Positions 3,798-63,244 of a stretch of 64,000 nucleotides of DNA are shown in pieces. Below the pieces are notes generated by a model, which did not search any database, was not told where the DNA came from, and was given only the letters and a program-made list of their open reading frames with translations. Within the stretch, counting starts at the first letter, position 1. Each line of letters opens with the position of its first letter. Source of the DNA: Salinispora tropica CNB-440. GTDB taxonomy: Bacteria; Actinomycetota; Actinomycetes; Mycobacteriales; Micromonosporaceae. The DNA lies in contig NC_009380.1 in NCBI RefSeq assembly GCF_000016425.1, forward strand, positions 4,530,144-4,594,143, written 5' to 3'. A program made the position numbers and the translations under genes.

Positions 3798-3964
3798 GCT
3801 GGCCCTCCCCACCCGGGTCGACGCGACCCGCTCGGCAAAGATCGCACCCGCGGTCAATCATCGTCGGCGCAGAGGTGCCCGCGAAAGGTCTGTTGACGGC
3901 GAACCATCAGCATACCTTTTCAGCTGTTTTTTCGCGTTCATGTTTATTCATGCCATTTGCCCGG

Positions 3965-4070
3965 TTTAGGTTGCGAGGTGGCTGCTACCGCCGCTTGGTA
4001 GCCGAGGGTCGCCCCCGTGGTGCGGGTGGTGGGTCCTTGTCGCTCACGGGGGAAGGACATCGATTTCACG
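3965..4070 (+). promoter_or_regulatory. Conserved structured 5' leader of beta-helix gene copy 1
   Basis: The leader runs from TTTAGGTTGCG to the start codon and is shared with copies 2 and 3. Helix A pairs GGTGG (3977-3981) with CCGCC (3988-3992). Helix B pairs GCTACC (3984-3989) with GGTAGC (3997-4002). They overlap, so they exclude each other. CGAGG (4003-4007) can pair with CCTTG (4035-4039) around an inner CCCG/CGGG hairpin, while GTCCTT (4033-4038) can instead pair with the purine-rich AAGGAC (4053-4058) ahead of the ATG. This looks like a cis-regulatory RNA; I do not recognise a known riboswitch class. Confidence 0.6.
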
Positions 4071-5507
4071 ATGAGTAATCAGGACCAGACTCAGGGGCCG
4101 GTGCGGCCGGTTGGACGTCGGGCGAAGTCGCGGTGGCGGTGGTGGGCGGTGGGGTTGGCCGGGGTGACCGGTCTGGCCCTGGGTGCTGTCGGCGTTGCTG
4201 CCAGTCCGGCCGCGGATGCGCTCGGGCGCACCCTGACCGCTGCCGATGATCACGGTGGCGACCGCGGCGGTGACCGCGGCAAGCGGGACGCGGGTAAGCA
4301 CGACGGGGGTAAGCGCAAGCACGACGACAAGGGCAAGGACGGGAAGAAGGGCAAGGACGGGGAGAAGAGCAAGGGTTCGGAGAAAAAGCCGACGGGGATT
4401 CCGGTCCCGTGTGACGCGGACGCGTTGATCGCGCAGATCACCCTGGCCAACGCCCGCGGCGGTGCCGTGCTTGATTTGGCCAAGGACTGCACCTACCTGC
4501 TCACCGCCGACATCGACGGTGCGGGGCTGCCCGCGATCACCGCCCCGATCACCCTCAACGGCGGCAAGAAGACCACCATCGAACGCGCCGCCGCTGTTGA
4601 CGAATTCCGGATCTTCACTGTTGACGTTGGTGGTGACCTCACCCTCAACAAGCTGACCGTCACCGGCGGGCAGACCGACGGCGACGGCGGGGGGATCCTG
4701 GTCAACGCCGGTGGAGCGCTGACCACCACGCACAGCACCATCACCCGCAACATCTCCGGCGGCTCAGGCGGCGGCATCGCCAACAACGGCACCACCCGAG
4801 TCAAGTACTCCACAGTCGACCGCAACACCGCCGCCACGGAGGGCGGCGGAATCTACAGCACCGGCCTGCTGGAAGTCGTCAAGTCCCACATCGACAACAA
4901 CACGGTCACCAATGGCGGTGGGGGCGGCATCTCCTCAGCCACCAGCACCGTCACCGTCAAGGGCGGCACCATCTCCGGCAACTTCGCGAACATCAGCGCA
5001 TTGCGGGTAGTCGGCGGCATCGGCACGGTTACCGGCACCACGTTCACCAACAACACGGCCCGCAGCAGTGGCGGTGGCGCCGCCCGGGTCGAGAGCGACG
5101 GACAACTCACGATGCGGAAGGTCAACCTGACCGACAACACCGCATCGGCCCTCGGCGGTGCCTTGTTCGTGGAATCGGAAAGTTTCGCTGTCGTCGAGGA
5201 CAGCATCATCAAGAACAACACCAATACCCTTGTAGCCGGCGGCGGAGGAATCTACAACGCAGGCCAAACAGTCATACGACACACCAAGATCATCGGCAAC
5301 CAAGCCCCCGACATCGGCGGCGGCATCTACAACGAAGGCACGATCAGCCTCTTCGCCACGAAGGTGGTCGAGAACATCGCCCTCACCGACGGCGGGGGCA
5401 TCTTCAACGCTGTCGCTGGCACGGTGAACCTGAACACCGCCACCGGCACCATCGTCATCAAGAACCGACCCAACAACTGCGTCAACGTCCCCGGCTGCGC
5501 CGGATAG
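4071..5507 (+). CDS. Secreted PMP-like right-handed beta-helix protein, copy 1
   Basis: The 478-residue product has a basic N-terminus, one hydrophobic segment ending in an Ala-rich signal-peptidase region (about 24-50), and a Lys/Asp/Gly-rich hydrophilic linker (about 59-108). The rest is a repeat domain of short units such as GGGILVNAGG, SGGGIANNG and GGGIYNAG, typical of chlamydial polymorphic membrane protein repeats and right-handed parallel beta-helices. Cys114/Cys140 at the head and Cys470/Cys476 at the tail are conserved in all four paralogues here. It is probably exported and surface-exposed; binding or adhesion is inference. ATG at 4071 follows GGGGGAAGGA at an unusually long spacing of about 13 bases. 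Confidence 0.82.
   Translation: MSNQDQTQGPVRPVGRRAKSRWRWWAVGLAGVTGLALGAVGVAASPAADALGRTLTAADDHGGDRGGDRGKRDAGKHDGGKRKHDDKGKDGKKGKDGEKSKGSEKKPTGIPVPCDADALIAQITLANARGGAVLDLAKDCTYLLTADIDGAGLPAITAPITLNGGKKTTIERAAAVDEFRIFTVDVGGDLTLNKLTVTGGQTDGDGGGILVNAGGALTTTHSTITRNISGGSGGGIANNGTTRVKYSTVDRNTAATEGGGIYSTGLLEVVKSHIDNNTVTNGGGGGISSATSTVTVKGGTISGNFANISALRVVGGIGTVTGTTFTNNTARSSGGGAARVESDGQLTMRKVNLTDNTASALGGALFVESESFAVVEDSIIKNNTNTLVAGGGGIYNAGQTVIRHTKIIGNQAPDIGGGIYNEGTISLFATKVVENIALTDGGGIFNAVAGTVNLNTATGTIVIKNRPNNCVNVPGCAG
4407..4761. repeat. 355-bp inverted repeat, left arm (beta-helix copy 1)
   Basis: This stretch of copy 1 reads base for base the same as the reverse complement of 10243-10597 in copy 2. It encodes the segment from the first conserved cysteine to the first beta-helix turns. 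Identity stops abruptly on both sides at single mismatches. Confidence 0.8.
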
Positions 5508-5524
5508 CGAAGCCGCAGAACCAC

Positions 5525-5564
5525 GAGGGCCCGTTCCACCGGCAGCCGGTCGGAACGGGCCCTC
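5525..5564 (+). terminator. Terminator hairpin after beta-helix copy 1
   Basis: GAGGGCCCGTTCC (5525-5537) pairs with GGAACGGGCCCTC (5552-5564), and the inner ACCGG/CCGGT extends the stem to about 18 bp with one bulged C. There is no long T tract, as is common in actinobacteria. Confidence 0.75.
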
Positions 5565-5623
5565 CGCCGGCGGGTCGAGACCGAGCCATCTAGAAACGAC
5601 GAGTCTCCTGCCAGAATCCGTCC

Positions 5624-6118
5624 ATGAACCGGACCCACACCTACGAGATCGCGACCACCTGGACCGGTGACCGTGGGCGCGGCACGGCGGACTACCGCGC
5701 GTACGACAGGTCGTACGACACGGTGAGCCCCGGCCGTCCGCTCCTCGCCGGCTCCGCCGACCCGGCATTCCGCGGCGACCCGCGACAGTGGAACCCGGAG
5801 CTGCTTCTCGTCGCGTCGCTGAGCCAGTGCCACCTGCTGTGGTACCTGCACCTGTGCGCGGTCAACGAGGTCGTGGTCGTCGGCTACCACGACGCCGCCC
5901 ACGGCACGATGCGCGAGGACGGCACCGGTGCCGCCCGCTTCACCGACGTCCTACTCCGCCCGGTGGTGACGGTCACCGATGTCGACATGGTCAAACGGGC
6001 GACCAAGCTGCATGTCGAGGCGAACGCCCGGTGCTTCATCGCCGCCTCGGTGTCGTTCCCGGTGCGGCACGAGGCGCGCACAACGGTCCGGCTACCACCA
6101 CCAGAACTGGCCAGCTAG
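5624..6118 (+). CDS. OsmC-family thiol peroxidase-like protein
   Basis: This 164-residue protein has the OsmC arrangement of two reactive cysteines. Cys69 lies in SQCHLLWYLHLC before a long helix, and Cys137 lies in NARCFIAASV in the C-terminal half. OsmC/Ohr proteins reduce organic hydroperoxides with a dithiol-dependent mechanism in the cytoplasm. The extended N-terminal strand with WNPELLLVASL is typical of the broad OsmC group rather than classical Ohr. It is flanked by a beta-helix gene and a serine hydrolase on the same strand, but a terminator separates it from the former. The specific peroxide substrate cannot be told from sequence. Confidence 0.85.
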   Translation: MNRTHTYEIATTWTGDRGRGTADYRAYDRSYDTVSPGRPLLAGSADPAFRGDPRQWNPELLLVASLSQCHLLWYLHLCAVNEVVVVGYHDAAHGTMREDGTGAARFTDVLLRPVVTVTDVDMVKRATKLHVEANARCFIAASVSFPVRHEARTTVRLPPPELAS

Positions 6119-6206
6119 CAGCATCGATATCGAAGCTCGGTCCGTCGACACTGGGTTCCTCCCAACGAGCCCGCCCTCGATACGAGGGCAATGAGGAGTT
6201 GTTCCC

Positions 6207-7379
6207 ATGTCCGACCGGAATCGCCCACACCGCCGCCCGACGGTGTTCTCGACCCGGCGACGCGTGCTGGCAGCCGTGTCGTCGATCGCCCTCGTCGGCG
6301 GTCTTGCCCTCAGTGGGGCCGCCCCCGCGGCGAGCGCTGACACCGTCCACCCCCGCGACGGCGTACAGGCCGACCTCGACCGCCTCGTGAGCGAGGGCAC
6401 GTTCCCAGCCGCCCTCGCCGCCGTCCGCACCTCCGACAGCCGTACCCGTAACTACACCGCCGGCGTGGCCGAACTCGACACCAGACGGAAGCCGCCGGTC
6501 GATGGGCGGGTGCGCATCGGCAGCAACACCAAGACCTTCGTCGCCACCGTGGTCCTGCAACTCGTCGGCGAGGGCAAGGTCGACCTGGACGAACCGATCG
6601 AGACGTACCTGCCCGGCCTGATCCGTGGCGACGGCATCGACGGGCGACAGATCACCGTACGGCAGGTGCTGCAGCAGACCAGTGGCCTACCCGGCTATGT
6701 GGACGACATCGCCCCAGACTTCTTCCTCCTCCGGCACACCTACTTCGAGCCGCGCGACCTACTCGACCTGGCCCTCGCGGACAAGGCGAGCTTCGCACCC
6801 GGCACGAGGTGGGAGTACAGCAACACCAACTACCTCGTCGCCGGGCTGCTCATCCAGAAGGTCACCGGCCGTCCGGTGGCCGAGGAAGTCACCAACCGCA
6901 TCATCGTTCCCCTCCGGTTGCGTGACACGTACTTCCCCCGCGTCGGCGAACAGGGCATCCGGGGCCGGCACCCGCACGGCTACTTCACCGACGACCCGGA
7001 CAAGCCGCTGCAGGACGTCACGAAGATGGACCCGTCCTGGGGCTGGGCGGCCGGCGCGATGATCTCCAGCCCCAGCGACACCAATCGCTTCTTCGCCGCC
7101 CTCCTCGCCGGGGACCTGCTCCGGCCCGCCGAACTCGACCAGATGCGCACCACGGTCCCCGCCTTTCCCGGCCGCGGCTACGGCCTCGGCCTGATGAGCT
7201 GGGACCTGACCTGCGGCGACCGCGCCTGGGGCCACGGCGGGGACATCCCCGGCTTCACGACCCGCGGCGGCGTCACCGAGGACGGCCGTGCCGTCACCCT
7301 CGCCGTCACCTCGACGCCGACGACCGAGACCAGCGCCAACCAGGTGGACGCAGCCGTCGACGCGGCTCTCTGCAGGTAG
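6207..7379 (+). CDS. Secreted serine hydrolase, beta-lactamase class C / DD-peptidase family
   Basis: This 390-residue protein begins with a signal sequence (hydrophobic core about 20-38, ending near ASA). All three penicillin-recognising motifs are present: S106-N-T-K109 as the nucleophile motif, Y204-S-N206, and H343-G-G345 in place of KTG. This is the layout of class C beta-lactamase-related DD-carboxypeptidases and esterases such as the Streptomyces R61 enzyme. It is likely extracellular and acts on peptidoglycan stems or esters; which one is not decidable here. GAGGAG lies just upstream of the ATG at 6207. A bidirectional hairpin follows the gene. Confidence 0.88.
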   Translation: MSDRNRPHRRPTVFSTRRRVLAAVSSIALVGGLALSGAAPAASADTVHPRDGVQADLDRLVSEGTFPAALAAVRTSDSRTRNYTAGVAELDTRRKPPVDGRVRIGSNTKTFVATVVLQLVGEGKVDLDEPIETYLPGLIRGDGIDGRQITVRQVLQQTSGLPGYVDDIAPDFFLLRHTYFEPRDLLDLALADKASFAPGTRWEYSNTNYLVAGLLIQKVTGRPVAEEVTNRIIVPLRLRDTYFPRVGEQGIRGRHPHGYFTDDPDKPLQDVTKMDPSWGWAAGAMISSPSDTNRFFAALLAGDLLRPAELDQMRTTVPAFPGRGYGLGLMSWDLTCGDRAWGHGGDIPGFTTRGGVTEDGRAVTLAVTSTPTTETSANQVDAAVDAALCR

Positions 7380-7388
7380 GCCCCCGGT

Positions 7389-7426
7389 GCGTTCCGTGCC
7401 TCGCCCCCGGTCGGGGCACGGGACGC
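7389..7426. terminator. Bidirectional terminator between convergent genes
   Basis: GCGTTCCGTGCC (7389-7400) pairs with GGCACGGGACGC (7415-7426), giving 12 pairs including one G-U. It sits between the serine hydrolase and the convergent TauE-type gene. Confidence 0.7.
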
Positions 7427-7437
7427 CGGCCGGGCAC

Positions 7438-8550
7438 CTATCCGACATCCTGCAGGTCCTCCCTGCTGCGGACTTCAGTGTTGGGTACGGCCGGCCGCCC
7501 CGCGGCCCCGGCGCCCACATCCGCCCAGGTGACATCCCCGAGTCGGACCGGCCCTGGCCGGGCGTACGTGTCCTGACGGATCAGGACCAGGCAGACGATC
7601 GTGAACAGTACGAGCGCGGCCACGCTGCCAACGGCCATAGCGGGAGTGAACGGCACCAGCAGGAGGGTGCTGACCAACTCCGCGAAGATCAGCACGAACA
7701 GCACCCCGCGGATCGTCAGGGGCGTCAGCCGGGTACAGATCCACGCCCCTAACGGCGCTCCCACGGCCACCACCGGCGCGGCAGTGATCCAGTAGTCAAC
7801 CACAAATCCGGTAAAATCGCGGACGACGAACACATGCGTCAGAAACGCGGCGATCGACACCAGCGTCATCATTACCACCGTGGTCGGGGTTGCCACCTTC
7901 TCCGACACCCGAAAGAGCAACACGAGCAGCAAGAACATGACGCAGTTCTCACCCACCCCGGCCACGCCGCTGAGCAACCCACCAAAGAAGCCGGCACCCA
8001 GGACCAGATTGCGCTCCCGCCCAGTCCACGTCGGCACCACGAAGTTTCGCTGATATCCGCGCTGACGCAGTTGCACCAGTAACGCTACCGCGAGCGCCAC
8101 AAGCAGCATCGTAAACAGCACCCGCACCAGCTTCAGCGGCACATGTGGAGCGATCATCGTCACGCTGAGCACCACGCCGAGTATTCCTGCGGTGGAGCCG
8201 TACAGCACCACCCGTCGTTCTATCGGCACCCGGCACAACAGGATCGACAGCGAAGCCGCAGTCATACCGATCGACTGAATGGCAAAGGTGAAGATACGCG
8301 CCTGGTCCGGCGGCACGGTCAGCACTTTCGTCATCACCGGAAAGGCAATCGCACCACCACCCTCACTGGTCCCACCACCGACCAGCGAGCCGAACACCAT
8401 AGTGAGCGCCACCGGCCAGTTCTCTTCGAGTCGAGTGAAGTAGCCCCACCCCCACACCTTTGCCCAGATCAGCCACACGATCGCCGCAAGAACAGCGTTC
8501 ACCAGCAACACTCGGGGCACTCGTACCATTTCTGCCGTCCCGCCTTCCAC
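7438..8550 (-). CDS. TauE/SafE-family sulfite exporter-like permease
   Basis: This 370-residue polytopic membrane protein has about eight or nine hydrophobic segments and the two internally related halves of the TauE/SafE (DUF81) family. The first half has GSLVGGGTSEGGGAIAFPVM and the second GFFGGLLSGVAGVGENCVMF, both glycine-rich re-entrant signatures. Family members move sulfite, sulfoacetate or other organic anions across the cytoplasmic membrane. The GTG at 8550 has AGGGA upstream; an ATG seven codons in is a possible alternative. There is no sulfur-metabolism gene beside it, so the substrate is open. Confidence 0.82.
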   Translation of the reverse strand: MEGGTAEMVRVPRVLLVNAVLAAIVWLIWAKVWGWGYFTRLEENWPVALTMVFGSLVGGGTSEGGGAIAFPVMTKVLTVPPDQARIFTFAIQSIGMTAASLSILLCRVPIERRVVLYGSTAGILGVVLSVTMIAPHVPLKLVRVLFTMLLVALAVALLVQLRQRGYQRNFVVPTWTGRERNLVLGAGFFGGLLSGVAGVGENCVMFLLLVLLFRVSEKVATPTTVVMMTLVSIAAFLTHVFVVRDFTGFVVDYWITAAPVVAVGAPLGAWICTRLTPLTIRGVLFVLIFAELVSTLLLVPFTPAMAVGSVAALVLFTIVCLVLIRQDTYARPGPVRLGDVTWADVGAGAAGRPAVPNTEVRSREDLQDVG

Positions 8551-9019
8551 AGTATTCCCTGAATCATCGGCCGCGGTCTAGTCGTTCACAGTCACCGACG
8601 TTCGGCAAGGACCAAAAAGAGCAAAACAAAAGAATTGGGCGGCGGGCCGGCAGGTCACCCAGCTCCGGTTGCACCCGGCGCACTTCTGATGGATTGGGCT
8701 GGTCTGGTGGATTGGGCTGGATTGGGAGAGGCCGCACACCGCCCCCTGAAGGCCCGGGGCTCCGACCCTGACGCAGCGTGACCTCCACAGGACCACCACC
8801 AGCGATCCACAGAACCACGAGGGCTCGTTCCCACCGTCAGTCGAGGAGAACGGGCCCGCTACGGGCAGCCCGCTTGCTCCCGACGGGGCCCGCCTCCGAC
8901 CTCACACCAGGACGAACCCGCCACGGCAAGCCGCACCAACGGCCCATCCGGATTGTTGGTACGGACGGAGATCAGCCGGATGGGGGTTCTCAGGGCCCCT
9001 ACCTGGGTACCGTCATGGG
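8551..9019. other. Gene-poor interval with short tandem repeat and decayed terminator copy
   Basis: No gene is supported here. GGATTGGGCTGG occurs at 8691-8702 and 8709-8720 with a third partial copy at 8719-8727. The sequence from about 8812 (agaaccacgagggc) to 8862 resembles the terminator region after beta-helix copy 1 (from 5517), but the stem arms have diverged. Confidence 0.5.
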
Positions 9020-9400
9020 ATGGTGTACATGCCGTCGCTACCGCAGCCGCAGCGGTTGCTCCTGGCTGAACTGGCAGGCACAGCCAACCGGTACAGCATC
9101 GGCGAAGGTCGGGGCCTGCCGCAGGAGGTGGCGGTTGCCGCGGTACGGGCGATCACCGACGACCCAGTGTTACTGGGCATCCAGGCCGGGGTGGCGATGG
9201 CGGATCCTTACGGGGTCAGTCAGCCAACCGTCGAACTGCTTCAGGCCGCCGGCGCTGACATGACCATCGCACAGCAGCACGCGACCGAGGTGCGGGAACG
9301 GTTGGAGCGGATCGGGATCGCCAGCGAGTCCGACGGTGACGATGCCGATGGGCGACGCGGCCAGCGTGGTGACGGGCAGCCAGACGGCCAGTGCGGCTAG
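9020..9400 (+). CDS. Hypothetical protein, 126 aa
   Basis: I do not recognise this protein. It begins MVYMPSLPQPQRLLLAELAG, has a mostly helical middle with ITDDPVLLGIQAGVAMADPY, and ends in an Asp/Gly/Gln-rich tail. No signal peptide, membrane segment or metal-binding motif is visible. Codon third positions are strongly G/C, as expected for a real actinobacterial gene. A strong hairpin terminator 25 bp downstream with a T-rich run on the + strand supports transcription in this direction. Its ribosome site is weak. It faces beta-helix copy 2 tail to tail. Confidence 0.55.
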   Translation: MVYMPSLPQPQRLLLAELAGTANRYSIGEGRGLPQEVAVAAVRAITDDPVLLGIQAGVAMADPYGVSQPTVELLQAAGADMTIAQQHATEVRERLERIGIASESDGDDADGRRGQRGDGQPDGQCG

Positions 9401-9424
9401 GGACCCACGGTCCCGATAGAGGGA

Positions 9425-9461
9425 TGATCCCGCCCCGTCGCCTTTGGCGACGGGGCGGGAT
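9425..9461 (+). terminator. Strong terminator hairpin between convergent genes
   Basis: A 17-bp perfect stem is formed by 9425-9441 and 9445-9461 with a TTT loop, followed by TCTTTCTT on the + strand. It probably serves the 9020 gene and, in reverse, beta-helix copy 2. Confidence 0.85.
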
Positions 9462-9487
9462 CTCTTTCTTCGTCCGTTTGTGGAGTG

Positions 9488-10891
9488 TTATCCGGCGCAG
9501 CCGGGAACGTTGACGCAGTTGTTGGGTCGATTCTTGATCACCACAGTACCGGTTGCGGTGTTGAGATCGACCGTACCAGCGGCGTTGAAGATACCCCCAC
9601 CATTCGTTACGGCAATATTCTTGATGACCTTTGTCGAGAAGAGCGAAGTCGTGGCCTGAGTGGAGTTGAAGATGCCGCCACCCCGGTCGGCCTGGTTGTC
9701 GATAATCTTCGTGTTCCGCACGACCGTCTGGCCCCCGTTGAAGATCCCTCCGCCGTCAAATTCCGTAGCGATGTTGTTCTTGATGATACTGTCCTCGACG
9801 ACCGCGAAGGAAGCGCCCCCATTGGTGGGCCCGGAAACTCCCAAGCCACCAACAGTCTGCGCTGTGTTATCCGTGAGTGCTACCTTCCGCAACGTTACCT
9901 GCCCGACAGTGGAGACCCGGACACCACCCGTGTCGGCGGCGGAGTTCCCGGCGATCCGGGTGCCGGTGACCACGCCGATACCGCCGGACACGTACAGCCC
10001 GCCGCCGATGGCCGCCTGATTACCGGAGATGGTGCCGCCCTTGACCGTGACCGTGCTGCTGGACGAGTAGATGCCACCGCCAAATTCAGAAAGATTGTTG
10101 TCGATGTGGGATTTGACGATCTCCAGGAGTCCGGTGCTGTAGATCCCGCCTCCCTGCTCGTTGGTGTCGTTGGCGGTGTTGCGGTTGACTGTGGAGTGGT
10201 TGACCCGGGTGGTGCCGTTGTTGGCGATGCCACCTCCCGAGTCGCCGGAGATGTTGCGGGTGATGGTGCTGTGCGTGGTGGTCAGCGCTCCACCGGCGTT
10301 GACCAGGATCCCCCCGCCGTCGCCGTCGGTCTGCCCGCCGGTGACGGTCAGCTTGTTGAGGGTGAGGTCACCACCAACGTCAACAGTGAAGATCCGGAAT
10401 TCGTCAACAGCGGCGGCGCGTTCGATGGTGGTCTTCTTGCCGCCGTTGAGGGTGATCGGGGCGGTGATCGCGGGCAGCCCCGCACCGTCGATGTCGGCGG
10501 TGAGCAGGTAGGTGCAGTCCTTGGCCAAATCAAGCACGGCACCGCCGCGGGCGTTGGCCAGGGTGATCTGCGCGATCAACGCGTCCGCGTCACACGGCAC
10601 CGGGATACCCGCCGGCTTCTGCGACCCCCTGCCCTTACCGTCGCCCTTACCCCTGTCATCCCCCTTGCCCGCGTCGCGCTTGTTCGTGTCGTCGCGCCTA
10701 CCGCGGTCGCCACCGTGGTCATCAGCGGCGGTCAGGGTACGCCCAAACGCACCCACGGCCGGACTCGCGGCGACACCAACGGCACCCAGGGCCAGACCGG
10801 TCACCCCGGCCAACCCCACCGCCCACCACCGCCACCGCGCCCGACTCCCGCCAGGCCGCACCGGCCCCTGAGTCTGATCTTGATAACTCAT
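9488..10891 (-). CDS. Secreted PMP-like right-handed beta-helix protein, copy 2
   Basis: This 467-residue paralogue of the 4071-5507 gene has the same plan. It has a basic start MSYQDQTQGPVRPGG, a signal-type hydrophobic segment (about 22-46), a Gly/Asp/Lys linker (about 57-94) and a glycine-rich beta-helix with units such as GGGIYSTG, GGGIFNGG and RGGGIFNST. Cys100, Cys126, Cys459 and Cys465 are the conserved set. The first part of the helix domain is identical to copy 1 at DNA level, while the C-terminal two thirds have diverged. The ATG at 10891 follows the shared leader. It is probably exported; the function is unknown. Confidence 0.82.
   Translation of the reverse strand: MSYQDQTQGPVRPGGSRARWRWWAVGLAGVTGLALGAVGVAASPAVGAFGRTLTAADDHGGDRGRRDDTNKRDAGKGDDRGKGDGKGRGSQKPAGIPVPCDADALIAQITLANARGGAVLDLAKDCTYLLTADIDGAGLPAITAPITLNGGKKTTIERAAAVDEFRIFTVDVGGDLTLNKLTVTGGQTDGDGGGILVNAGGALTTTHSTITRNISGDSGGGIANNGTTRVNHSTVNRNTANDTNEQGGGIYSTGLLEIVKSHIDNNLSEFGGGIYSSSSTVTVKGGTISGNQAAIGGGLYVSGGIGVVTGTRIAGNSAADTGGVRVSTVGQVTLRKVALTDNTAQTVGGLGVSGPTNGGASFAVVEDSIIKNNIATEFDGGGIFNGGQTVVRNTKIIDNQADRGGGIFNSTQATTSLFSTKVIKNIAVTNGGGIFNAAGTVDLNTATGTVVIKNRPNNCVNVPGCAG
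10243..10597. repeat. 355-bp inverted repeat, right arm (beta-helix copy 2)
   Basis: This is the reverse complement of 4407-4761. Conserved coding sequence alone would allow third-position changes, and none are seen. Confidence 0.8.
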
Positions 10892-10998
10892 CGTGAACTC
10901 GACGTCCTTCCCCCGTACGCCACAAGGAACCCACCACCCGCGCCACGGGGGCCGCCCCTCGGCTACCAAACGGCGGTAGCAGCCACCCGCAACCTAAA
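10892..10998 (-). promoter_or_regulatory. Conserved structured 5' leader of beta-helix gene copy 2
   Basis: Read on the minus strand it starts TTTAGGTTGCGGGTGG and repeats the copy 1 plan. GGTGG/CCGCC competes with GCTACC/GGTAGC, CGAGG can pair with CCTTG around CCCG/CGGG, and TCCTT can pair with AAGGA ahead of the ATG. Upstream, beyond the leader, TTCTTCG is shared with the sequence preceding copies 3 and 4. Confidence 0.6.
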
Positions 10999-11130
10999 CA
11001 GACATGCACCCCATACAATTGTAAACACGAAGAATATGCCTGAAACGGGCAGTCATCCTTTGATCATTGCTCATCTGGACCGGCATCCCGGATGGCTGAG
11101 GTGGGGCGCCGTTCGCTACTGTCCTGCCCT

Positions 11131-11685
11131 GTGGCAAGCACGAACCTCCGCACCGAACGCCTCGAACTTCGGCCGGTACGTGACGAGGACATCGACCGCA
11201 TCCTGGAGTACCGCAACCTGCCGGAGGTCACCCGCTGGCTGCTCCGCACCGACGTTGACCCAGCGGCTTTCCGAGCGGCATGGCGACGCTCAGCGGAAGA
11301 CCCCCACGACCACAGGGTGGCGGTGACCCGCGACGGCGTCGTCATCGGCACCGTCTCGCTCGACGTGCGCACCAGTATGGGGCAGCCCGGCACGCCGCCG
11401 GGGACAGAAGCCGAGGTCGGCTACATCTTCGACCCGAGGTACGGCGGCCACGGCTACGCGACTGAAGCGGTCACCGCGATGGTCTCCTACTCGTTCGCCC
11501 GGTTGGGCGTACGCCGGATCACCGCTGGTTGCTATGCGGACAACCTCGCCTCGGTGCGGCTCCTCGAAAAAGTCGGCATGCGGCGGGAGCAGCACGGCGT
11601 CGGCAACTCCTGGCACGCCGAGTTGGGCTGGGTGGACGGCTACACGTACGCCCTGCTCGCCGAGGAGTGGTCCAAACAGCCGTAA
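11131..11685 (+). CDS. GNAT-family N-acetyltransferase (RimJ/RimL type)
   Basis: The protein has the RimJ-like opening LRTERLELRPVRDEDIDRIL, a central strand ending in GTVSLDV, and the acetyl-CoA pyrophosphate-binding loop RYGGHGYATEAV. It then has NLASVRLLEKVGMRRE, the family's final helix. Such enzymes acetylate N-termini, aminoglycosides or small amines; the acceptor is unknown. I chose the GTG at 11131 because the family normally begins a few residues before LRTERL. An ATG at 11092 would add 13 residues without a ribosome site. It is convergent with the next gene, three bases apart. Confidence 0.85.
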   Translation: MASTNLRTERLELRPVRDEDIDRILEYRNLPEVTRWLLRTDVDPAAFRAAWRRSAEDPHDHRVAVTRDGVVIGTVSLDVRTSMGQPGTPPGTEAEVGYIFDPRYGGHGYATEAVTAMVSYSFARLGVRRITAGCYADNLASVRLLEKVGMRREQHGVGNSWHAELGWVDGYTYALLAEEWSKQP

Positions 11686-11688
11686 CCC

Positions 11689-12189
11689 TTACCCCACCGG
11701 CTGTTCAGGACTCCGGCGGATCGTCACCGGCACCTCACCGAGGCGGTAGTGGACGACCTCGAACGGCCACGCCGCTCGCAGCCACGCCCCCACAATCTCG
11801 GTCAGCAGACCATCCAGCTCCGCGCGAGCAGCGGACACCCACGACGAGGCCGCCACCTCCCGCTCACCCGTCGACGACGGCTCGAAATACACGCAGCCGA
11901 CCACGTCACCGGTGGCGATGTCGATGACCGAGTACGCGAAGTCCACCCGCTGATGTGACCGCTGCGCATGCCCCGCCAGGTCCTCGTGGTTCTCGGCGAG
12001 CGTCATCCCGGCCACCGGCGGCCAGCCCTGGTCGAATCCCGGCGTTGACCGGATGTGCGCAATACTCGACATCCAGGCAGCGTGATCCGCCTCGTTGTGT
12101 TGCGGCCCGAGCAACTCGAGCCGCAACCCATGGGCAACACACACATCTGGTACAGCGAACGAAGCCGCGACGAGCGGTAGGTCGGTCAC
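11689..12189 (-). CDS. Putative GNAT-like N-acetyltransferase
   Basis: This 166-residue protein starts MTDLPLVAASFAVPDVCVAH. Its central FAYSVIDIATGDVVGCVYFE resembles the beta4-beta5 core of GNAT enzymes, and SWVSAARAELDGLLTEIVGAWL could be the helix after the acetyl-CoA loop. A clean Q/RxxGxG/A loop is not visible, so either it is a divergent member or it is catalytically altered. No signal peptide or membrane helix is present. It is convergent with a typical GNAT gene at 11131-11685. Confidence 0.6.
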   Translation of the reverse strand: MTDLPLVAASFAVPDVCVAHGLRLELLGPQHNEADHAAWMSSIAHIRSTPGFDQGWPPVAGMTLAENHEDLAGHAQRSHQRVDFAYSVIDIATGDVVGCVYFEPSSTGEREVAASSWVSAARAELDGLLTEIVGAWLRAAWPFEVVHYRLGEVPVTIRRSPEQPVG

Positions 12190-12273
12190 CTGCGGAGCCT
12201 AACAGCCCAACTGCTGGCTGGCAGTGCAGCGGACCGGCCGATGGCGGTCCGCCCAGGCACGCCGGCCGGTAGG

Positions 12274-13593
12274 TCAGCCCTGGCACGTGGGAACGTTCAC
12301 GCAGTTGTCTGGTCGATTCTTGACCACAGTGGTGCCGGTAGCACTGGAGAGATCAACCGTGCCGCCGATCTCGTTGAAGATGCCGCCGCCGTCGGTGCCG
12401 GCGACGTTCTCGACAACCTTCGTGCGCAGCAGGGTGAGCGCGCCGACCGATCCGTTGAAGATGCCGCCGCCCGACTCGGTGGCCTGATTACCGGTGACCT
12501 TTGTACGCAGAAGCGTCAACGTGCCGAGATTGTGAATGCCACCACCGTTGACTCCGACATTGTCCTTGATGACACTGTCCTCGACGAGCAGGGCTCCCCC
12601 TTGCAGAAAGATCGCACTCTGGCCGGTGCCGGCTGCGGTGTTGGCCGCGATGGTGACCCGGGACATGGTGAGCTGGAGGGGCCCACCGGCGACAGCGGAA
12701 CCGCCGAAGCCCGTTGTCGTGTTCTCCTCGATGCGGGTGTCGGCGATAGTCCCGGTCACCCCACCGAGGAGGAAAATAGCTCCCCCCTCGGAGGCTTGAT
12801 GACCGACCAACTCGCTCCGGGTAACGGTCAACTGACCACTGATCGTGAGAGCACCGCCAGTCAGCGCAGTATTCGCGTCGAGCCGCGACTTGTCGATGGC
12901 GAGTGTACCGATACTGAAGATCCCGCCGCCGATATTAGCAGCAGCATTTCGACTGAGGTCGGAGTGTTCGATATGGAGCACGCCGCCAATGTTCGCGATC
13001 CCGCCGGCGTCGCCGCCACTGGATACATTTTCGACAATCTTACTCTTCCTGACTGTGGCACCGCCACCTGGGTTGATGAGAATCCCGCCGCCGTCGTTGT
13101 CACCAGAGAGCCGCCCACCGGTGACGGTGAGGTGATTAAGGGTGAGTCGACCGTTGGCGTTGACGGTGAGGATTCTGAAGTCGTCGGCCGCGGCGGAGCG
13201 TTTGAGGGTGGTGTTCTTTCCGCCGTTGAGGGTGATGGGAGTGGTGATCGCCGGCAGGCCGGCACCGTCGAGGTCAGCGGTGAGCAGGTAGGTACAGCCC
13301 TCGGCAAGGTCGAGCACGGCACCACCCCGGGCGTTGGCTCGGGTGATCTCGGCGATCAGCCGACTCGTGTCACAGGGCACCCGCGTACCCTTCGGCTGCC
13401 CGAGTTGGTCATCGACGACGGCAGCGTGTCCGACACCCTCGCCGCCGGGGGCGGCGGTGAGGGTGGTGACGGCAGCGGCGGTAAGCGCCAGGCCGGTCGC
13501 TCCGGCCAGCCCGGCAGCCCACCATCGTGACCTCGCCTGACCTCCGTTGCGATGCTCCGGGTTGGATCTGGTCGTGTGACGCTGATGGTTCAT
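12274..13593 (-). CDS. Secreted PMP-like right-handed beta-helix protein, copy 3
   Basis: This 439-residue paralogue is the most divergent of the four. It starts MNHQRHTTRSNPEHRNGG, has the signal segment RWWAAGLAGATGLALTAAAV and almost no charged linker (VVDDQLGQPKG only). Its helix turns include GGGILINPGG, GGGIFSIG, GGAIFLLGG and GGGIHNLG. Cys74, Cys100, Cys431 and Cys437 are conserved, as is the tail TVVKNRPDNCVNVPTC. Copy 3 is read divergently from copy 4, with 760 bp between their start codons. An exported surface protein is likely; no enzymatic motif is visible. Confidence 0.82.
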   Translation of the reverse strand: MNHQRHTTRSNPEHRNGGQARSRWWAAGLAGATGLALTAAAVTTLTAAPGGEGVGHAAVVDDQLGQPKGTRVPCDTSRLIAEITRANARGGAVLDLAEGCTYLLTADLDGAGLPAITTPITLNGGKNTTLKRSAAADDFRILTVNANGRLTLNHLTVTGGRLSGDNDGGGILINPGGGATVRKSKIVENVSSGGDAGGIANIGGVLHIEHSDLSRNAAANIGGGIFSIGTLAIDKSRLDANTALTGGALTISGQLTVTRSELVGHQASEGGAIFLLGGVTGTIADTRIEENTTTGFGGSAVAGGPLQLTMSRVTIAANTAAGTGQSAIFLQGGALLVEDSVIKDNVGVNGGGIHNLGTLTLLRTKVTGNQATESGGGIFNGSVGALTLLRTKVVENVAGTDGGGIFNEIGGTVDLSSATGTTVVKNRPDNCVNVPTCQG

Positions 13594-13690
13594 CGCGGTG
13601 TTGACACCCTTCCCCGTGAACGACGAGGAGCCCGACGGCCGGGTTCTCCTCGGCTACCGGGCCGGCGGTAGCAGCCACCCGCACGCTAGA
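13594..13690 (-). promoter_or_regulatory. Conserved structured 5' leader of beta-helix gene copy 3
   Basis: The minus strand reads TCTAGCGTGCGGGTGG and then GCTACC/GGTAGC as in copies 1 and 2. The CGAGG helix is longer here (CGAGGAG with CTCCTCG) around CCCG/CGGG. Relative to copies 1 and 2 the CCTTG partner has become CCTCG, so a G-U pair is replaced by G-C and pairing is kept. Confidence 0.6.
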
Positions 13691-14353
13691 CCGACACCGA
13701 TCCGATGTAGCTACAATTCCGAAGAAAATACTTAAACCAGACAAAATTCCCAATCCGGATATGGACCGGCCGCACGCCCCTCGCAGGGCCGTGACCGCAG
13801 GCGGAACCACACAGCGATGGCCAAGGACGCCGCCTTCCCCGACCTGCTGCACGCCGGAACCGGTGGTGGCCGCCGGAACCGGGCCTTCGCCAACTCGGCA
13901 CCCGCGGGAAAGCCCAGGCCATCATCGCCGGCTACGAACTCAACTACACCCACAAACAACACCGCACGGTTGTCGGCGTCATGTCCTGTTCCGGCGTCCA
14001 TCTGGCAGATCGTTGACTTGAGCTTGGCGTGTTCGTCGTGGCGGACCTCGGATGCCCTGCGGGACCGGCACAGATGCGCCAACCACGCCCGCCTGCTCCG
14101 TCGTCGCACCCGAAGCCGGCACCTACTCCTGGGCGCGCCCCAGGTCCGCAACCCCGAAGTCGGGGTGGACCTGTTCGGGCCGGGCCAGCTAGGACGAACG
14201 TACCGTTTGGGTAGTTTCTTCGGTTTCATGTTCGCATGAGGCCAGTATCGGTTTTGCTCGGGGTGATTGCTACGCCTGCCGTGGGCAGGGAGCGGCCACA
14301 GCCGTCGCGCGGTTCGCTGCTCGTTTGAGACGGGGAAAGGACACCGAGACCGG
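13691..14353. other. Divergent interval between beta-helix copies 3 and 4
   Basis: No intact gene is convincing. One + frame (about 13880-14015) contains GKAQAIIAGYELNYTHKQHR and then stops, which could be a decayed coding fragment. The copy 4 leader (about 14225-14353) has TTCTTCGG and ACGGGGAAAGGACACC like the others, but it lacks the GGTGG/CCGCC and GCTACC/GGTAGC pair; a CCTGCC/GGGCAGG hairpin sits there instead. Confidence 0.4.
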
Positions 14354-15727
14354 ATGAACCATCAGCACCAGGTATCCACACCAGGCCCCCGCCGCACACC
14401 CCGGGCGAAGGCGAAATGGTGGACTGTCGGGCTCGCTGGCGTGACTGGGCTGGCCCTCACCACCGGCGTCGCCGCCGCCCCGGCCGCCGCCGCGGTCGGA
14501 CGCACCCTCACCCCCGACGGCTGGACCTCCGCTGAGGACCACCGCGAACGCGGCATGAGCGAGGGCGAGGCCAGGGGCAAGGGCAAGGGCAAGGGCAAAA
14601 AGGACACCGCACCCAACGGCACCCCCGTGCCCTGCGACGCGGACGCCCTCATCGCCGCGATCACCCTGGCCAACGCCCGCGACGGCGCCGTGCTCGACCT
14701 CGCCAAGGACTGCACCTACCTGCTCACCGCCGACATCGACGGCAACGGCCTGCCCGCCATCACCGCCCCCATCACCCTCAACGGCGGCAAGAACACCACC
14801 ATCGAACGCGCCGCCACCGCCGACGGATTCCGCATCCTCACCGTCGATGCCGGCGGCAACCTCATCCTCAACAAATTGACCATCACCGGCGGGCAGACCG
14901 ACGGCGAAGGAGGCGGCATCCTCGTCAACCCCGGCGGCACCCTTACCACCAACCACAGCAGCATCACCCGCAACATCACCAACGTCTCCGGTGGCGGCAT
15001 CGCCAACAACGGCACCACCCGAGTCAACCACTCCACAGTCGAACGGAACACCGCCACCAGCCAAGGAGGCGGGATCTCGAGCACCGGTCTCCTGGAAGTC
15101 GTCACGTCACACATCGACAACAATAAATCAATCCCTGCCCTGGGCGGCGGCATCTACCAAGCCGGCAGCACCGTCACCATCAAGGGCGGCAGCATCTCCG
15201 GCAACCAAGCAGAGGTCGCTGGCGGTTTGTTCGTCTCCGGAGGCGTCGGTGTGGTTACCGGCACCCGAATCACCAAAAACACGGTACGCAGCAGTGGCGG
15301 TGGTGGTCTCCGGTCTGACGCCGGCGCGCAACTCACGCTACGAAAGGTCCATCTAGCCGACAACGCCTCACCAGTCCTCGGCGGCGGCATGTTCGTCTCG
15401 ACCGGCAGCTTCGCCGTAGTCGAGGGCAGCACCGTCAAGAACAACAACCTTACGACGAACTCGCCCGGCGGAGGAATTTACAACGCAGGGCAAACCGTGC
15501 TGCGACGCACAACCGTCATCGGCAACCAGGCCGGTCAAGGCGGCGGCATACTCAACGAAGGCACGATGGACCTCTTCACCACGAAGGTGATCAAAAACAT
15601 CGCTGTCACCGACGCTGGAGGCATCCTCAGCATCGCCGGAACCGTGAACCTGAACACCGCCACCGGCACCGTGGTCATCAAAAACCGACCCAACAACTGC
15701 GTTGGCGTCCCCGGCTGCCCAGGCTGA
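14354..15727 (+). CDS. Secreted PMP-like right-handed beta-helix protein, copy 4
   Basis: This 457-residue paralogue starts MNHQHQVSTPGPRR. A hydrophobic export segment (about 22-48) is followed by a linker containing GKGKGKGKK, encoded by a GGCAAG tandem repeat. The glycine-rich beta-helix includes GGGIANNG, GGGIYQAG and SGGGLRSDAG. Cys94, Cys120, Cys449 and Cys455 are conserved, and the C-terminus keeps VVIKNRPNNCVGVPGC. Start at 14354 follows GGGGAAAGGA with the same long spacing as the paralogues. Its leader has diverged from the other three. Confidence 0.82.
   Translation: MNHQHQVSTPGPRRTPRAKAKWWTVGLAGVTGLALTTGVAAAPAAAAVGRTLTPDGWTSAEDHRERGMSEGEARGKGKGKGKKDTAPNGTPVPCDADALIAAITLANARDGAVLDLAKDCTYLLTADIDGNGLPAITAPITLNGGKNTTIERAATADGFRILTVDAGGNLILNKLTITGGQTDGEGGGILVNPGGTLTTNHSSITRNITNVSGGGIANNGTTRVNHSTVERNTATSQGGGISSTGLLEVVTSHIDNNKSIPALGGGIYQAGSTVTIKGGSISGNQAEVAGGLFVSGGVGVVTGTRITKNTVRSSGGGGLRSDAGAQLTLRKVHLADNASPVLGGGMFVSTGSFAVVEGSTVKNNNLTTNSPGGGIYNAGQTVLRRTTVIGNQAGQGGGILNEGTMDLFTTKVIKNIAVTDAGGILSIAGTVNLNTATGTVVIKNRPNNCVGVPGCPG
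14575..14598 (+). repeat. GGCAAG hexanucleotide tandem repeat in beta-helix copy 4
   Basis: About four consecutive GGCAAG/GGCAAA units encode the Gly-Lys linker. In copies 1 and 2 the matching linker differs in length and composition. Confidence 0.7.
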
Positions 15728-62482: not shown

Positions 62483-63244
62483 CACGGCCTCCAGCAGTCG
62501 GCTCGGGCTTCGCTGGTCTGGAAGCGTGCGCGACCCGGCTGTCCCGAGGGCGGCCCCGGCTGCTGGTCTGTGGACGGGGACGGCACCTGTGGACAGAGTC
62601 CGCCCGAATAGTTGATCTGCTATGCCCGCGACGCTCGCACCCTCGACTACCCACCCCTGGCCAACGTCGGACAGCAGGCCACGGCCCGACCCGGCCCTGA
62701 CTGGTGCGGGCGGGTCAACAACTGGCCGAACCCACACGTCCGGCGGTGGGCCGCACATCGGCGCGGCAGCCAGTCGCCCCAGCATCAACGGCGGCCGCCC
62801 CCCGCGGTCGTCGCTTGCCCTGGCGGTACTGTCGGGACAGCGCGGAGCTCCGGCTCGGTCCGCGTGGTGAGCCCTGCTTCGAAACGTGGCTTCACCTGGG
62901 CCGACAACAGGAGAAGAAGGGACGACCCCCGTCGGGGGGAAGACGGGGGTCGTCGGGGTCCGGCTCCGGGGGGGGTGAGCCGAACCACTCAGCGGTCACG
63001 GGGGGGGGTGCAACCGCCGAGGGTCTGTCGGTTGTCCGGAAGATGAACGCCTGTTGTGTCGACAGTCTGCCTGAGTGCACCTGGCTACGTCGAGTGGTGT
63101 GGCCTCCACTCCCTGCTGAATCTTCCCGCAGTGTGTGATCGCGGTCACGCAGAGCAGGCCGACGGTCGACCACGTCGCACATCCGAGGGGTTGACGGACC
63201 CGGGCCCCCGCAGACGATAGACCATCGGGCTAGACTTGCGCGCC
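62483..63244. other. Intergenic region of tad operon and HAD gene, G-tract rich
   Basis: No gene is supported. A perfect 13-bp stem lies at 62921-62933 and 62942-62954. It is followed by runs of eight and nine G (about 62969-63009), which could form G-quadruplexes or length-variable tracts on the + strand. The promoters of both divergent transcripts must lie here. Confidence 0.5.
62921..62954. terminator. Perfect hairpin in the tad upstream region
   Basis: GACGACCCCCGTC (62921-62933) pairs with GACGGGGGTCGTC (62942-62954) around GGGGGGAA. Whether it is a terminator or a regulatory structure is unclear. Confidence 0.55.

Follow-up and report, generated by a model that had tools for sequence, protein, structure and literature searches.

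Pmp genes, which encode predicted secreted beta-helix proteins, are preceded in the 64,000-nucleotide stretch of Salinispora tropica CNB-440 DNA analysed here (the window; contig NC_009380.1, positions 4,530,144 to 4,594,143) by a structured leader with a conserved, covarying secondary structure ahead of the start codon. The leader belongs to the Pmp genes of Salinispora, of its wider genus and of two or three related genera. Its probable role is to control the production of these surface proteins. Comparison of its copies shows a near-invariant GCUAC...GUAGC hairpin (P1) and a second hairpin of variable sequence (P2), joined in wider relatives by a covarying helix just before the start codon (P3) and, in a group of leaders that we call subtype 2b, by a further helix (P0). 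That the element is transcribed and that its structure acts in regulation we infer. The leader is a candidate new RNA class with good support from comparison.

Conservation and covariation of the leader

An earlier note on this DNA had described three leaders in which GGTGGCTGCTACCGCC, GGTAGCCGAGG and a G-rich tract follow one another in the same order, and all three were found where it had placed them; the order of the blocks is indeed kept. GGTGG varies in other paralogues. Copy 1 (type 1; 3974-4073, forward strand) runs through the ATG of the Pmp gene at 4071-5507 and was matched at 86.1 bits (G000:C1:4534117-4534216) by R2, a covariance model of 20 leaders from this genome that was searched with a cut-off of E ≤ 0.01. 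From the sequence and the pair counts its P1 hairpin (3984-4002) pairs GCTACCG (3984-3990) with TGGTAGC (3996-4002); it directly abuts P2 (4003-4039), in which, from the sequence and the pairing tests, CGAGG (4003-4007) pairs with CCTTG (4035-4039). A candidate competing hairpin P3 (4035-4051), read by eye in this copy, would pair the same CCTTG with CGGGG (4047-4051), and AAGGA lies just 3′ of it at 4053-4057. Copies 2 and 3 are on the reverse strand. Copy 2 (10889-10990; 80.1 bits) extends through the ATG of the Pmp gene at 10891-9488, with P1 formed by 10980-10974 and 10968-10962 and the 5′ arm of P2 at 10961-10957, and copy 3 (13591-13682; 82.8 bits) extends through the ATG of the Pmp gene at 13593-12274, with P1 formed by 13672-13666 and 13659-13653 and the 5′ arm of P2 at 13652-13648. 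A degenerate fourth leader (14259-14356, forward strand; 44.9 bits, E = 2.5e-8) stands before a fourth Pmp gene and offers a natural test of what decay of P1 does.

The most constrained letters of the leader are TGG, T, GCTACC, GCC and GGTAGCCGAGG. Across the 5,183,331-bp genome an exact core pattern turns up at four sites, of which three lie in the window, and its reversed control does not occur at all; a shortened pattern gave 58 stretches, all from Salinispora, in a scan of one genome per species in GTDB 220 from which the record holding the window, or records very close to it, may have been left out. Further upstream, type-1 leaders are preceded by a conserved block TTTTTCG..TTCATGT with TGTCGGTTTAG (for example at 3920-3975) and subtype 2b leaders by TTCTCATACGGT; these blocks are probably a shared promoter.

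Searching with R2 yielded 205 matches in eight Salinispora genomes (18-34 per genome), which merged into 192 distinct leaders, about six of them chance or non-Pmp rows that were kept in the fold sets. P1 and P2 abut without an intervening nucleotide in 190 of the 192, and the P1 loop measures 5-7 nucleotides in 179 of 187. On a FastTree tree of the 179 leaders with letters at all 14 pairs (13 were dropped), P1 columns underwent 1-14 substitution events, the loop-closing pair 15 and 22, and 60 upstream columns 29-71. One-sided events kept pairing in 25 of 45 cases in P1 (12.7 expected) and in 46 of 93 in P2 (27.5 expected), while nine of 12 double events in P2 ended in a pair. A stricter test that is robust to saturation, in which transitions in Watson-Crick pairs are counted as keeping or breaking the pair, gave 57 keeping and 30 breaking for P1 and P2 combined (p = 0.0025). 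Within the 20 leaders of this genome 95.0 % of P1 and P2 cells are paired, against 93.7 % in shuffled alignments (reached by 21 of 500) and 26-54 % when the helices are slid. Mean fold z-scores were -2.70 for the P2 segment and -2.18 for P1, against +0.11 upstream and +0.21 downstream, with segment ends that were set by the model and so favour P1 and P2; the P2 interior, which lies outside the model, reached -1.23 over 187 leaders. The pairing of CGAGG with CCTCG or CCTTG around an inner hairpin, as the earlier note had it, is upheld by pair counts, z-scores and tree tests alike. Taken together, the pairing, fold and tree results leave P2 well supported in the Salinispora set and P1 moderately so, and they reject GGTGG/CCGCC, the first helix of the switch discussed below.

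Some candidates from the same analyses were set aside. A DNA palindrome, GGYTG/CTACC, kept pairing in 17 of 55 one-sided events (9.2 expected) but is discounted because it overlaps P1 and because a retained G-U is meaningless for DNA. Weak R2 matches in eight genomes outside Salinispora look like chance and have no Pmp relative nearby, and an R2 match at 6037-6132 of the window (reverse strand) recurs at seemingly syntenic places but appears to be the end of a protein-coding gene on the opposite strand.

Applied to the loci of homologous genes, R2 also revealed a diverged leader ending at the Pmp start codon, both in other genomes of the genus and before remote paralogues in the S. tropica genome itself. 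The genus (handle g1) comprises the Salinispora species and larger genomes, which we take to be Micromonospora because GTDB joins it with Salinispora. P1 reads GCUACAA/UUGUAGC in these wider relatives and GGCGACAA/UUGUCGCC in a further subtype. The leaders of genes for MSNYL and MSNDV proteins, labelled subtypes 2 and 2b in this analysis, have in common a P3 of the form CUGUCU/GGGCAG or CCGUCU/GGGCGG; subtype 2b folds in addition with P0 (AUCAGAG/CUCUGAU) across the start codon, so that the 5′ end of the leader pairs with it.

A second covariance model, R3, was built from 16 diverged leaders and searched at E ≤ 0.001 over 354 genomes of the family in 44 genera. It matched 168 genomes in four genera, 159 in the genus and nine others, often with two copies each, and on rechecking mostly divergent genomes it matched 29 of 30; a match in a single g29 genome (G332, L417) is probably chance, since it has neither P1 nor Pmp. 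Alignment of 100 sources (six of the loci L360-L459 left out, six others added) gave 94 distinct leaders. In this alignment, whose fitting to the model favours structure, 92.6 % of cells are paired (P1 99.4, P3 92.3, P0 83.4), 61 cells are double-changed against 28.3 ± 3.4 after shuffling, and the covariation score is 0.184 against 0.143 ± 0.004 (slid maximum 0.091), neither the count of double-changed cells nor the score being reached by any of 500 shuffles; seven pairs show a double change against 4.5, a number reached by 18 of 500 shuffles. The unfitted 16-row alignment agrees, with a score of 0.130 against 0.108 (0 of 500) and 93.3 % of cells paired (1 of 500). P3 switches from UA to CG in 25 of the 94 sequences, and a subclade around L395-L403 appears on our reading to carry CCCUUU/AAAGGG in its place. 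The P2 segment of the wider relatives has a z-score of -2.35 (upstream -0.16). The earlier note had called for a search of Micromonosporaceae genomes and a test of covariation, which in this wider alignment stands above shuffles.

A loose pattern, ACAAN{3,5}ATTTGTN{1,2}C, has many matches outside the genus that look like chance, and the groups fetched with it, ACAACCCATTTGTCC and, from genome G161, ACAATCGATTTGTGAC, do not lie before Pmp genes. Four genomes of the genus (loci L350, L351, L353 and L359) share a conserved intergenic stretch in which TTGTGAATACTTTCACGAAC or a close variant, resembling a Rex operator, is followed by ACAACCCATTTGTCC. G161 carries clusters of short TTGTTCAA/TTGTGCAC-like repeats at several places (L346-L349).

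Pmp genes behind the leaders

The leader is consistently tied to one gene family, Pmp. Among the open reading frames (ORFs) that follow Salinispora leaders, 184 of 190 match the three window genes P0001-P0003, and 93 of the 94 R3 leaders precede a Pmp-like N-terminus (55 by blastp, 38 by eye from short ends). Of the 23 paralogues in this genome that are close to the three genes, 20 have the motif ahead of them; two of the three that are without it look to us like second genes of tandem pairs and the third is the fourth Pmp gene of the window. Such sharing is not chance, because most of the paralogues carry the motif and P1 columns change far less than those upstream. The earlier note had thus rightly seen beta-helix paralogues with a common leader, but the family numbers about 30 genes in this genome (34 match rows) and not three.

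P0001 (4071-5507, forward strand) encodes a predicted secreted beta-helix protein matching Pfam Chlam_PMP (1.3e-7) and the NCBIfam POMP repeat (7.9e-6). The product of P0002 (9488-10891, reverse strand) is 80 % identical to it and gave no Pfam family of its own at an E-value of 0.01; P0003 (12274-13593, reverse strand) matches Pfam Beta_helix (7.3e-7). The fourth Pmp gene, an ORF at 14354-15727 on the forward strand (match G000:C1:4544518-4545867), is divergent from copy 3 and shows 69 % identity to P0001. Leader remnants were seen before apparently decayed Pmp genes of the same genome at L209 (G000:C1:1855909), L210 (1386335) and, least certain, L212 (1847455). A tandem pair with one subtype 2b and one subtype 2 leader (L058:695-792 and L058:2615-2709) exists in this Salinispora genome as it does in other genomes of the genus.

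For S. tropica, Penn and Jensen (2012; PMC3314556) reported 30 Pmps that passed as marine adaptation genes, and the window genes very probably belong to that family, whose copy number of about 30 and repeat annotation agree with ours. The passages of theirs on the family that are compared here discuss the proteins and do not describe a leader. The two Pmp copies that they report for Micromonospora fit the count of leaders per matching genome of the genus, which ranges from one to four and is often two.

Alternative pairings and the start region

In the earlier note GGTGG/CCGCC and GCTACC/GGTAGC were proposed to exclude each other. GGTGG/CCGCC reaches 80 % pairing, no more than shuffled alignments do, its mean pairing probability is 0.08, and Watson-Crick transitions on the tree keep it in 10 cases and break it in 31; the exclusive pair falls because this helix is not conserved. 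A pairing between CCTT and the AAGGA ahead of the ATG, likewise suggested, is possible in leaders with a CCTT arm in P2 (28 of 177, 27 of them with AAGG downstream) but is not general. More broadly, 136 of 184 leaders have, 3-13 nucleotides downstream of the 3′ arm of P2 (CCTYG), a 5-mer with which that arm can pair along its whole length, against 34 ± 4 after shuffling, the partner by eye being mostly CGGGG before AAGG. Sharing of CCTYG between P2 and a downstream hairpin could amount to a competition of P2 with P3 in type 1. Against such competition, the sequence between the CCTYG arm and the ATG has a fold z-score of 0.00, no better than that of shuffles, and Shine-Dalgarno pairing rises only from 0.45 with P2 enforced to 0.56 with its 5′ arm blocked, 114 of 174 leaders changing in the direction expected. 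A translational switch of the kind that the earlier note had in mind is possible, though weakly supported in the copies it covered.

Start codon pairing was compared with controls in which the upstream sequence was shuffled, using 60 leaders drawn from each of types 1 and 2 and 31 of subtype 2b. In subtype 2b it averaged 0.71 against 0.49 and was higher in 25 of the 31. This was the only group with pairing above controls, and a general OFF state that hides the ribosome site is not supported.

A probable cis-acting leader and its rivals

On balance we lean towards a cis-acting leader RNA that sets the translation or the stability of the Pmp mRNAs, in preference to a general switch, because the excess of start codon pairing is confined to subtype 2b and pairing of the region from -27 to -14 falls below that of the controls. 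Transcription would start just upstream of P1, as suggested by a TAnnnT-like box about 10 nucleotides before it. P1, with its conserved sequence, may be the recognition site of a putative trans factor (a protein, a small RNA or a ligand), and its state, relayed through P2, P3 or P0, would determine how readily ribosomes reach the Pmp mRNA or how long that mRNA lasts. Many Pmp genes could in this way respond together.

Several results weigh against this reading. The covariation score of the 20 leaders of this genome is reached by 17 of 500 shuffles, and for P1 alone the transition test (22 keeping, 12 breaking; p = 0.06) is only suggestive. When whole leaders are folded, pairing probability exceeds 0.5 for P1 in only 80 and for P2 in 64 of 190 (GGTGG/CCGCC 13 of 190), and seven of eight leaders taken singly have a fold z-score no lower than -1.1. 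P0 is weak in Salinispora, at 85 of 188 against 75.8 ± 3.2 and with no excess when Watson-Crick pairs alone are counted. The start codon is no more paired than in the controls in types 1 and 2 (higher in 34 and 32 of 60), and pairing from -27 to -14 is higher than in controls in just 15 of 60 type 1, 22 of 60 type 2 and 11 of 31 subtype 2b leaders.

The low pairing of that region in all three types tested is what one would expect if P1 and P2 were constitutive hairpins that protect the 5′ end of the mRNA and keep the ribosome site open without any switch, as the 5′ stabilising hairpins of E. coli ompA and B. subtilis aprE do. Those leaders also have a hairpin by the 5′ end (here presumed) and a second before the ribosome site, and they too serve genes for surface or secreted proteins; here P1 would lie within about 10 nucleotides of the presumed start and two hairpins precede the ribosome site. 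A simple stabiliser has no need of a near-invariant stem, however, and the P1 arms show 1-14 events per column, the loop-closing pair aside; in the wider relatives covariation ties P3 and P0 to the start region, and P0 pairs the start codon in subtype 2b. We consider simple stabilisation possible but doubtful. The invariance of the stem and the position of the dyad next to the conserved upstream block would also suit a DNA operator, the GCTACC...GGTAGC inverted repeat being bound at the transcription start by a repressor or an activator. An operator should be a dyad of fixed spacing without preference for G-T over other mismatches, yet departures in P1 are mostly G-U (in the wider relatives, 28 G-U cells and 4 non-pairs), the spacer varies, mostly from 5 to 7, and covariation extends to P2 and P3, which lie deeper in the transcript. 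Since a G-U pair has meaning in RNA alone and the loop is of variable length, P1 is not accounted for by an operator on its own, and we hold this reading to be improbable. That the leaders have no function of their own and are alike merely from recent gene duplication is highly improbable and disfavoured: they do travel with Pmp genes, decayed copies included, but the rate of change in core columns is lower than upstream by a factor of several to over ten, changes prefer to keep pairing, and diverged relatives throughout the genus retain this arrangement.

A more specific version of the cis-acting leader, to which we give about the same modest credence as to simple stabilisation, is that it represents a new class of leader RNA, perhaps a protein-sensing element or a riboswitch, in which the invariant 5′ hairpin would take the signal and P0, joining the extreme 5′ end of the mRNA to the start codon and clearest in subtype 2b, would open or close translation. 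Translational riboswitches and protein-binding leaders, such as those of ribosomal proteins, likewise have a structured 5′ untranslated region with helices reaching the start region and serve one gene family; the present leader differs in that it lacks an Rfam 15 match and that hiding of the ribosome site is not general. The earlier note had recognised no known class, and at gathering score Rfam 15 indeed has no match at the window leaders; with lax settings, the 271 bases surrounding copy 1 and a further search of five leader loci returned three chance-level matches in all, none near gathering. A 6C RNA (RF01066; 76 bits) was found elsewhere in the window, at 62917-62989 on the reverse strand. 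A few searches of the open-licence Salinispora and Micromonospora literature gave no description of the leader or of Pmp control, the riboswitch papers listed being covered by titles and the starts of abstracts.

The amplification of Pmp proteins in Salinispora has been put forward as an adaptation to marine life (PMC3314556). The shared leader RNA, found in 159 genomes of the genus, offers a direct handle on the control of these proteins. If the leader does sense a signal, about 20 leader-bearing Pmp genes per Salinispora genome, and with them the surface repertoire, would be under one RNA-sensed signal.

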